Assembly (NCBI GenBank): GCA_022821775.1 | Contig: JAJECY010000090.1 | Location: 1-37,471 of the forward strand | Length of the DNA stretch: 37,471 bases | Reading direction: 5' to 3' | Source of the DNA: Acidobacteriota bacterium | GTDB taxonomy: Bacteria > Acidobacteriota > Terriglobia > Versatilivoradales > Versatilivoraceae | Shown here: piece after piece, positions 1-1,867 of the stretch | Layout: each line of letters opens with the position of its first letter | Position numbering within the stretch: the stretch's first letter is position 1 | Made by a program: the position numbers and the translations under genes | Notes under the pieces: generated by a model | What the model was told of the DNA's origin: nothing | The model's database searches: none | What the model saw: only the letters and a program-made list of their open reading frames with translations

Positions 1-375
1 CTCCATACCGACTTCAGGCATGATGAGGTGCCGGCTGTATCTCTGGATCTCATCCTGGCTGAGGTCCAGGCTGTCGGAAGCAGCCTCGACGGCACGAAGG
101 TCGCCGCCGGCGATCGAGGGTACGATGCTCAGGACGTCTCCCTCCTTCACCGGGGTCCGGTCTTCCTGCAGATACCGGACATCCTCGTCATTGACGTAGA
201 CGTTGACAAAGTTGCGGACCTGCCCCTCTTCGTTCAGCAGGTGTGGCTTGAGCTCAGGGAAGCGACGGACCAGTCCATCGATCACCTCACCCACCGAATC
301 GCCGCTCAGCTCCACCTCGTCCCGATTGCCCGTGAGATGCCTCAACGCAACCGGCAGGAGCACCTTCAAAGCCAT
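1..375 (-). CDS. MoaD/CysO-like sulfur carrier fused to MoeB/ThiF E1-type adenylyltransferase (partial)
   Basis: The gene starts at ATG 375-373 behind a GGAGGAGAA Shine-Dalgarno and is open to the window edge, giving 125 residues with no stop. Residues 1-91 are a beta-grasp sulfur-carrier domain of the MoaD/ThiS/CysO type, with NFVNVYVNDEDVRYL in the middle and ending SIAGG, where the terminal Gly-Gly of a free carrier would be (residues 90-91). The chain continues through a linker of about 13 residues into LSQDEIQRYSRHLIMPEVG, the usual N-terminus of MoeB/MoeZ E1-like enzymes that adenylate the carrier's C-terminus. By family knowledge the product would activate a sulfur carrier for cysteine or cofactor synthesis. 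It follows a JAMM peptidase and cysM on the same strand, as in the CysO-Mec-CysM pathway of Mycobacterium. The fusion puts the Gly-Gly inside the chain. The E1 ATP site and any rhodanese domain lie outside the window. Confidence 0.88.
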   Translation of the reverse strand, partial: MALKVLLPVALRHLTGNRDEVELSGDSVGEVIDGLVRRFPELKPHLLNEEGQVRNFVNVYVNDEDVRYLQEDRTPVKEGDVLSIVPSIAGGDLRAVEAASDSLDLSQDEIQRYSRHLIMPEVGME

Positions 376-510
376 TTCTCCTCCTCAAGGTTCATCCCCG
401 CACTCGCTGACATAGTATAGCCCGCATTTCTCGCCGGTTCCCCGCGCATGGAATGAAAATCTGCATGCCCTTGCCAGAAACAAGTCCTGCAAAAAGCAAT
501 GCAGGCCGGC

Positions 511-936
511 TCAGCCGGCTTCGATCTCCTCGGGACCGAAACGGGAACGGTCGTCGGCCAGTCTCCAGCAGGTCATGTCCCCGGCCCGTCCACCGGAAAC
601 CGAGACGATGAGGTAGGAGTAGAAGGGCCAGGCATGATCCAGATCGAACCGGGAGGGCTTGGCCTCCGCGTCGGGATGGGAGTGGTAAAAGCCCAGCACC
701 TCCATGCCCTTTTCCCGCGCGCGTTTCTCGGCCTCGAACATGGTCCGGGGAGAGATCAGAAATCGGTTGTGCCGGTCGCTCTCCTTCCGCGCATTCTCGG
801 CAGGCAGCAACTCCAGGATGTGCTTGTCTCCCTGAACCAGCCGTCCCAGCATCAAGCCGCAACACTCGTCGGGATAGGTGGCCTCCCCATGGGCTTGAAT
901 GGCCCCCGGATGCTCCGGTTTGAGTCTAACCGCCAC
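511..936 (-). CDS. JAMM/Mov34 zinc metallopeptidase, Mec+-like
   Basis: A 141-residue single-domain JAB/MPN protein. The JAMM zinc site is complete: Glu24 in DECCG, His85 and His87 in YHSHP, Ser95, and Asp98, matching HxHx7Sx2D exactly. The Mec+ family removes cysteine from the CysO carrier's C-terminus, and other JAMM proteins cut after Gly-Gly of ubiquitin-like domains. The gene begins at GTG 936, overlapping the end of cysM by 11 nt, and is followed 135 nt later by the carrier-E1 fusion. The trio therefore matches the carrier-dependent cysteine pathway. Family and zinc site are directly visible. The substrate (carrier-Cys adduct, the fusion junction, or both) is inferred from neighbours. 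Confidence 0.93.
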   Translation of the reverse strand: MAVRLKPEHPGAIQAHGEATYPDECCGLMLGRLVQGDKHILELLPAENARKESDRHNRFLISPRTMFEAEKRAREKGMEVLGFYHSHPDAEAKPSRFDLDHAWPFYSYLIVSVSGGRAGDMTCWRLADDRSRFGPEEIEAG

Positions 937-1867
937 CCTTGCCGACTCCCCAGAACCGCTCGTTCAAGTATTTCATGCCGCCGTCGCAGAGCACCGTCAC
1001 CACCACTCCGGCCTCCAGGTTCCTGGCGATCTCGACAGCCGCCACCACGTTGGCTCCCGCCGAGATACCAACCAGAAGCCCTTCTTCCCGAGCCAGCCGG
1101 CGAACCATCTCCTGAGCCGCTTCAGTCGATACCTGCACATGCCTGTCGGCCAACCGGCTGTCGTAGATGGGCGGGACGATGGAGGAGGGCATGTGCTTCA
1201 TCCCTTCCAGGCCGTGCAGAGGTGAATCCGGTTGCATGGCGATACACTCGACGCCCGGGTCGAACTCCTTCAGCCTGCGGGTGGTTCCCACAAAGGTGCC
1301 GCTGGTGCCGAGCCCGGCCACGAAATGGGTCACCCGCCCGGCGGTCTGCTCATGGATTTCCACTGCCGTGCTGCGGTAATGAGCTTGCCAATTGGCCGGG
1401 TTGCCATACTGGTCCGGATAGAAGTACCGGTCCGGGTTTTCCGAGTAGAGTTTCTTGGCGGTACGAATAGCGCCGTCGGACCCCTCCCTGCCGCTGGTCA
1501 AGACCAGTTCCGCGCCGTAAGCCTGCAGGATCTTGAGCCGTTCCGGGGTCACGTTCTCCGGCATGGCCAAGCGCACGGGAATCCCCCTCACCGCCCCGAT
1601 CATGGCATAGGCGATCCCGGTGTTTCCCGAGGTGGCGTCCAGCAGGATCTTTCCCGGCCTGAGCTTGCCGGAGCGCTCCCCCTGCTCGATCATCTCCAGC
1701 GCGGGACGGTCCTTGATCGAGCCGCCCGGATTGAACCATTCCGCCTTGGCGTAGAGGGTCACATCGGGCCCCCCTCCCCACACCCGCTTGAGCGGAATCA
1801 GGGGAGTGTTGCCGATCGTTTCCAGAACAGCAGCGGCTCCACCGGCATCCAGCGTCTGGGACGTCAT
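926..1867 (-). CDS. cysM: Cysteine synthase, CysM/CysK family (PLP-dependent)
   Basis: A beta-family PLP enzyme of 313 residues. The Schiff-base lysine is Lys52 in GGSIKDRPAL, the phosphate/substrate loop is TSGNTG near residues 79-84, and a glycine-rich GLGTSGT loop follows near residue 180. It replaces the leaving group of an activated serine with sulfide, or with a carrier thiocarboxylate. The JAMM peptidase and sulfur-carrier fusion downstream suggest the thiocarboxylate route known for mycobacterial CysM, which uses O-phosphoserine. By eye, the region holding the mycobacterial phosphate-binding Arg (ALRNM) reads GMKHM here, so substrate preference is open. ATG 1867 has GAGGTG at good spacing; an in-frame GTG lies at 1876. 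It is divergent from dprA. Confidence 0.92.
   Translation of the reverse strand: MTSQTLDAGGAAAVLETIGNTPLIPLKRVWGGGPDVTLYAKAEWFNPGGSIKDRPALEMIEQGERSGKLRPGKILLDATSGNTGIAYAMIGAVRGIPVRLAMPENVTPERLKILQAYGAELVLTSGREGSDGAIRTAKKLYSENPDRYFYPDQYGNPANWQAHYRSTAVEIHEQTAGRVTHFVAGLGTSGTFVGTTRRLKEFDPGVECIAMQPDSPLHGLEGMKHMPSSIVPPIYDSRLADRHVQVSTEAAQEMVRRLAREEGLLVGISAGANVVAAVEIARNLEAGVVVTVLCDGGMKYLNERFWGVGKGGG

Follow-up and report, generated by a model that had tools for sequence, protein, structure and literature searches.

The pro-carriers of the HcyS/HcyD and QbsE/QbsD systems, which belong to the homocysteine and thioquinolobactin pathways, respectively, possess one or two extra C-terminal residues that are removed by a JAMM enzyme, and neither of them is known to be fused to an E1 enzyme. 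In Mycobacterium, MoeZR, CysM and Mec+ act on the sulfur carrier CysO, and Mec+ releases cysteine from CysO-Cys (PMC3227635). A gene set comprising ThiS/MoaD, an E1 with a rhodanese domain, JAB and a cysteine synthase was described by Iyer, Burroughs and Aravind in 2006 as operon type 4c, with the acidobacterium Solibacter usitatus among its bearers, and the sections of that paper considered here also suggest that JAB may release ThiS/MoaD domains from proteins to which they are fused (PMC1779556). Cleavage after an internal Gly-Gly has been documented for carrier-MoaE fusions: HvJAMM1 cuts SAMP1-MoaE exactly after Gly, with the Gly-Gly being needed in cells (PMC4443979), DRJAMM activates the natural MoaD-MoaE fusion of D. 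radiodurans (PMC8832034), and MoaX of M. tuberculosis must be cut, between Gly82 and Ser83 (PMC4326299). Finally, the portions of a 2024 study considered here list MoaD-MoeB and MoaD-MoeBR fusions (clusters 356.1-356.3) and propose their transfer from Acidobacteria to Archaea (PMC11237513).

The window analyzed by us is a stretch of 37,471 nucleotides from an Acidobacteriota bacterium (GCA_022821775.1, contig JAJECY010000090.1). Its first 1876 bases carry three genes, all on the minus strand and in the order CysM, JAMM, carrier-E1, with the following features:

1876-926, minus strand: CysM-type PLP-dependent cysteine synthase, 316 aa (cysM/cysKM models; operon position conserved)
936-511, minus strand: JAMM/Prok-JAB metallopeptidase, 141 aa (Prok-JAB, 6.5e-26)
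375-1, minus strand: carrier-E1 fusion gene, first 125 codons (open reading frame; ThiS and MoeB/MoeZ models)
103..375, minus strand: sulfur-carrier (ThiS/MoaD/CysO-like) domain, residues 1-91 (Pfam ThiS, 5-91; NF041918 SAMP1, 11-91)
103..108, minus strand: Gly90-Gly91 codons, where cutting and sulfur loading are expected (invariant in 57/57 fusions)
43..102, minus strand: linker, residues 92-111 (variable by column entropies; predicted to be disordered; no in-frame ATG/GTG/TTG)
1..42, minus strand: start of the MoeZ-type E1 domain, RYSRHLIMPEVGME (NCBIfam MoeB/MoeZ matches)

The cysteine synthase gives a PALP/cysM match of 1e-108, under the cysM equivalog cut-off (Pfam/NCBIfam), and its relatives of solved structure include CysM of M. 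tuberculosis (3dwg/3dki). The JAMM gene begins with a GTG start codon and overlaps the CysM gene by 11 bp. A complete zinc site in this neighboring JAMM protein had been predicted from the sequence, and its residues are indeed present (E24, H85-S-H87-P, S95 and D98), match the motif Glu + HxHx(7-10)SxxD, and are conserved in 95 relatives. An AF2 model of the protein (mean pLDDT 92) matches JAMM1 of P. furiosus and other JAMM structures, with TM values of 0.76-0.82 against the PfJAMM1-SAMP2 complex (5lda). The window JAMM is the only strong Prok-JAB of the source genome. We propose that it serves both as the maturase of the carrier and as the cysteine-releasing enzyme. On another contig of the same genome (C111; L221, L008), we noted that MoaD and MoaE are fused with a Gly-Gly inside the chain (PPVSGGQTPADAG...), for whose cutting just the one strong Prok-JAB gene of the genome is available.

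The original prediction held that the carrier ends in SIAGG and then continues, in one frame, into the start of a MoeB/MoeZ-type E1, and the open reading frame and the Pfam/NCBIfam models both agree with this. The ThiS/MoaD-SAMP1 domain covers residues 5-91 (E 8e-15; the NF041918 match lies barely above its own cut-off), and its relatives of solved structure include CysO (3dwg_C, 4n6e_B). The domain ends in SIVPSIAGG (SIAGG being residues 87-91), followed by DLRAVEAASDSLDLSQDEIQ and then by the first E1 residues; MoeB/MoeZ models match residues 100-125 of the window frame. An internal Gly-Gly at a domain junction is also what JAMM-activated fused pro-carriers possess, and by this sequence feature the gene product would belong among them. 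The frame runs off the end of its contig (C269, one of 312), and the extension proposed as a check leads to contig C24 (L005:3-998), whose frame begins at about ThiF position 43, supplies the remaining E1 and the rhodanese domain, and is the sole E1+rhodanese frame in the source genome. On two congeners (L047 of G001 and L046 of G005), the ends corresponding to C269 and C24 lie 85 nt apart, in frame and within one gene. The contig gap spans 29 codons. The C24 part holds the E1, zinc and rhodanese cysteines, and across 35 fusions no variation occurs in the E1 ATP-site residues, the four zinc cysteines (CxxC...CxxC), C289 or the rhodanese C443. In an AF2 model of the G001 protein (pTM 0.70), the E1 part matches MoeB, ThiF and Uba4, and residues 88-101, located between well-predicted domains, have pLDDT values below 50, so that the carrier/E1 junction is predicted to be flexible. 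Such a predicted disordered junction would permit cutting.

To assess how widely the fusion occurs, 217 good genomes were drawn from the phylum, and the fusion protein found a strong match in 112 of them. About 50 of these 112, belonging to many families, have a match that covers carrier and E1 within a single frame (counted as matches that begin at residue 1-5), usually beside CysM and JAMM genes. Named relatives that carry the fusion come from Acidobacteriota, Chloroflexota, Ignavibacteria/Bacteroidota bins and Thermoplasmata bins, and the last of these agree with the passage from Acidobacteria to Archaea that the considered portions of PMC11237513 propose. The operon CysM-JAMM-carrier(-E1) is conserved in fused and in split relatives alike. 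On a quick tree of 103 E1 sequences, in which gain of the fusion and its loss by fission are indistinguishable, the fused and split states require 13 changes, of which well-supported branches force at least 8.

Throughout these changes the Gly-Gly was kept, in 57/57 fusions retrieved by searches that did not use a Gly-Gly motif (17 relatives and 40 phylum members, L251 being one of the latter; both sets rest on whole-protein similarity). In L280, the carrier end reads PAMAGG, with the Gly-Gly intact. P86, S87, A89, G90 and G91 are invariant in 35/35 fusions; this set was partly found by a pattern containing SIAG, and fusions from that scan were therefore not counted as unbiased evidence for the Gly-Gly. 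Residues past the Gly-Gly are nearly unconstrained, and the linkers comprise 12 to 45 residues. That the fused carrier domain is decaying was consequently rejected, since the Gly-Gly and its neighbors are its most conserved part and are kept in the fusions. The original prediction would have been abandoned had a free carrier been found together with loss of the fused Gly-Gly in relatives; the source genome does possess free carriers with a GG end (C37, C213), but loss of the fused Gly-Gly was seen in no relative.

The fusion had been thought to pose a unique problem for carrier maturation, and this notion found no support: in split relatives, which possess the same operon (CysM-JAMM-carrier-E1), the separate carrier is almost always tailed beyond the Gly-Gly as well, e.g., with GGR, GGAKI or GGLPLRCVCS as the end before the stop codon. 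Among 95 deduplicated carriers with a JAMM gene close upstream, 43 are fused, 51 are tailed and a single one ends at GG. JAMM-linked carriers overall are fused or tailed in 104/106 cases, two ending at GG (L075, L243), vs. 12/35 fused or tailed and 23/35 ending at GG among the other carriers of related genomes; the rows of these counts are not phylogenetically independent, and linkage in the second set was judged on 1.4-kb pieces. Seven carriers without a linked JAMM end at GG, and in five of their genomes Prok-JAB is weak or absent. The few fusions, and the tailed carriers, that lack a neighboring JAMM come from genomes with a Prok-JAB gene elsewhere, except for the incomplete bin G066 and for G064, where the match is weak. 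The C37-type carrier of the source genus and family served as a within-genome control, and in 10/10 genomes examined it stops directly after the GG. ThiS of the same genus and family, on the other hand, has 5-27 extra residues after its GGG end (L328 on contig C27 of the source genome G000; L329-L336 in congeners), and, judged from its sequence, would also need C-terminal trimming. The idea that tails are confined to JAMM-linked carriers was therefore rejected, and a tail alone is no proof of a link to the window JAMM. At the genome level within the class, a comparison of tails with JAMM presence had no power because nearly all members possess JAMM. Since the separate carriers of the operon are tailed too, it is simplest to regard maturation by JAMM as normal for this carrier family, with the fused E1 as the longest of the tails. 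The numerous odd tails carried by unfused relatives seem to be a novel feature.

The C37 carrier itself is CysO-like, free and ends exactly in GG; its gene cluster (L006) also contains a threonine synthase-like gene, an E1 without rhodanese, a class V aminotransferase/desulfurase and an aspartate-semialdehyde dehydrogenase, and may serve as a carrier-dependent pathway to a different sulfur compound.

Because the carrier is fused to its own activator, the neighboring zinc protease most likely must cut it free. We consider it likely, as a reading of the whole locus, that the fusion is a pro-carrier, that the JAMM frees both carrier and MoeZ from it and later releases cysteine, and that the carrier's stop codon has thereby become free to drift. 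By its gene content, the locus holds the set for a CysO-type cysteine pathway: a Gly-Gly carrier that would be usable only after a cut, an E1-rhodanese, and linked CysM and JAMM genes. The catalytic steps that we infer for the source organism would be as follows. The gene product would be a CysO/SAMP-like carrier whose chain continues into its own MoeZ-type E1 with rhodanese. The JAMM encoded just upstream would cut this chain after Gly91, yielding a free Gly-Gly-ended carrier and MoeZ, which would then adenylate the carrier and hand over sulfur from the rhodanese cysteine. CysM would couple the thiocarboxylate sulfur with activated serine to form carrier-Cys, from which the same JAMM would remove the cysteine by an identical cut after Gly91, so that one protease would do both jobs. 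Since anything past the Gly-Gly would be removed by the protease, the stop codon of the carrier could drift, giving rise to short tails, Cys-rich leader-like tails or a whole E1. The source genome also encodes CysE and CysK, so that the operon is not its sole route to cysteine but would be a second one.

An error of assembly or gene model, or an E1 made mainly from an internal start, would be a trivial explanation of the fusion, and we hold it to be very improbable. The gene does run off a contig end, and an in-frame ATG/GTG/TTG occurs in the linker of 33/50 fusions. However, the frame is uninterrupted in all ten same-family relatives with the gene (G001-G010, where it forms open frames of 488-515 aa), including the complete single-contig chromosome of G001 (OX638355.1), and in about 50 genomes of the phylum, which excludes the frameshift or misassembly that had been named as a finding that would count against the original prediction. 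Linkers without any in-frame start occur in 17/50 fusions, the one in the window being of this kind, only six fusions have a linker start codon accompanied by an SD-like stretch, and an internal start would leave the carrier's C-terminus unfreed anyway. Assembly error, frameshift and internal initiation were rejected on these grounds, together with the placement of the contigs on the congeners. The fused domain could also be no sulfur carrier at all, acting instead as a docking or regulatory domain of the E1 while a free carrier, e.g., C37, does the chemistry, or it could work uncut in cis. A non-carrier role has been proposed for an N-terminal Ub-like domain fused to ThiF of the Campylobacter type, in the sections of PMC1779556 considered here, and the source genome does have free carriers ending in GG. 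We nevertheless judge this quite improbable: no part of the carrier end is more conserved than the Gly-Gly and the residues next to it, whereas the residues that follow drift, the operon stays the same as its carrier and E1 switch between fused and split states, and the C37 carrier belongs to another gene cluster with its own E1. In the Campylobacter-type Ub-like-ThiF fusions, as these sections describe them, the Ub-like domain differs from ThiS, and a separate ThiS is encoded alongside in a thiamine operon. Assignment of the window gene to this type was likewise rejected; its domain is ThiS/SAMP1-like with a Gly-Gly, and its neighbors are CysM and JAMM.

A further possibility accepts the cut after Gly91 but assigns it to another protease, leaving the neighboring JAMM to act on carrier-Cys only, in a pure Mec+ role. 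In PMC4326299, no protease was assigned to the MoaX cut, and tails also occur on carriers not linked to a JAMM gene, both of which would fit such a division of labor. It is unlikely in our view, as both cuts are the same hydrolysis of the peptide bond after the carrier's last Gly, JAMM enzymes have been shown to cut linear fusions of this type (PMC4443979, PMC8832034), and the JAMM of the window, besides being without a strong Prok-JAB competitor in its genome, sits in the operon of most fusions. We therefore retain the reading in which a single JAMM matures the carrier and releases cysteine from it.

Two patterns at the carrier/E1 junction suggest that tails are by-products of gene control, affordable owing to the protease. 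Where the E1 gene starts 5-13 nt after the Gly-Gly codons, these codons read GGAGGN in 9/12 cases (L062, L087, L099, L100, L106, L111, L131, L132, L155), compared to 20/104 elsewhere (Fisher p 2e-4, relatedness not corrected). In these cases, the Gly-Gly codons may double as the Shine-Dalgarno sequence of the E1 gene, the tail being the spacer; the fused gene of the window has GGC GGC at this position. The second pattern is restricted to one acidobacterial family (28/250 genomes) and is absent from the source genome. There, the tail ends in the Cys codons of ...RC(I/V/A/T)CS, and its TAG stop lies inside a conserved DNA stretch, with a hairpin, GCCTGG...CCGGGC, after the stop that shows some covariation (L068, L069, L071, L073, L079, L081, L084, L090, L104, L108, L135, L300-L321). 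A search of ten tailed loci against Rfam yielded no match, this element included. In G036, a second copy (L084:4329-4397, minus strand) is a stand-alone leader ORF, MRLLTTTKGTLLRRSILRCTCS followed by a stop codon, directly upstream of a second cysteine synthase gene. By its sequence, the element looks like an undescribed cysteine-responsive leader peptide that has been joined to the carrier in the JAMM operon.

Cysteine-responsive uORFs are known from mycobacteria. Similar in idea are polycysteine peptides before the E1 at two loci, as a carrier tail that ends in MICPTVCCPACCCCQ before the stop codon (L150) and as a separate short ORF, MKPTVTDRCCMCCPSCR plus stop (L151). At L310 (G398), the carrier frame is seemingly reduced to its two ends (MPVKVITPTSSIAGSTVLRCICT, then a stop), a leader-like peptide that keeps the Cys motif. 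We tentatively put forward, as a possibility somewhat less likely than not, that the JAMM freed the carrier's C-terminus from selection and that genomes exploit this for gene control, with the Gly-Gly and post-Gly-Gly codons used as E1 Shine-Dalgarno and spacer, with a cysteine-sensing leader, or with full fusion that fixes a 1:1 ratio of carrier to E1, one protease acting as maturase and cysteine releaser.

With this set of genomes, scattered cases such as MoaX, the D. radiodurans MoaD-MoaE protein and SAMP1-MoaE become a testable, family-wide pattern: across one large phylum, cysteine-pathway carriers would normally be made as precursors whose removable partner is often their own E1, and one JAMM enzyme is predicted to be needed twice within one pathway. 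The arrangement is a bacterial parallel to ubiquitin precursors produced as fusions, and it cautions annotators that the end of a carrier need not coincide with its Gly-Gly.

The window operon encodes the same four kinds of protein, with the same domain types, as the CysO/MoeZ(R)/CysM/Mec+ system (PMC3227635). The mycobacterial components are individual proteins, with CysO reported to be a free carrier, whereas here carrier and E1 form one chain and the E1 gene is part of the operon. The original statement that the known relatives are separate proteins is thus correct for Mycobacterium; it does not extend to the MoaD-MoeB and MoaD-MoeBR fusions listed in 2024, and with these the novelty of the fusion itself falls away. 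The latter share the domain order carrier-E1(-rhodanese) with the window fusion, but the considered portions of that study report them as molybdopterin genes, without a link to CysM/JAMM or to cleavage (PMC11237513). Operon type 4c has the same gene set as the window operon, but its carrier and E1 are described as separate in the considered sections, which describe neither tails nor conservation of an internal Gly-Gly (PMC1779556). SAMP1-MoaE, the D. radiodurans MoaD-MoaE protein and MoaX contain a carrier with an internal Gly-Gly that is inactive until cut after the second Gly, and the window fusion likewise has an internal Gly-Gly; in those systems, however, the partner is MoaE, the sulfur acceptor, and not the activating enzyme, and SAMP1-MoaE is artificial. 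Already known, then, are the fusion architecture (2024) and the operon with the idea of freeing by JAB (2006), as given in the considered parts of these two papers, as well as the JAMM cut after Gly-Gly in carrier-MoaE fusions. New, as far as the papers considered show, are the setting of the fusion beside JAMM and CysM, the strict retention of the Gly-Gly while fusion and fission recurred, the occurrence of tails throughout the family, and both patterns of gene control.
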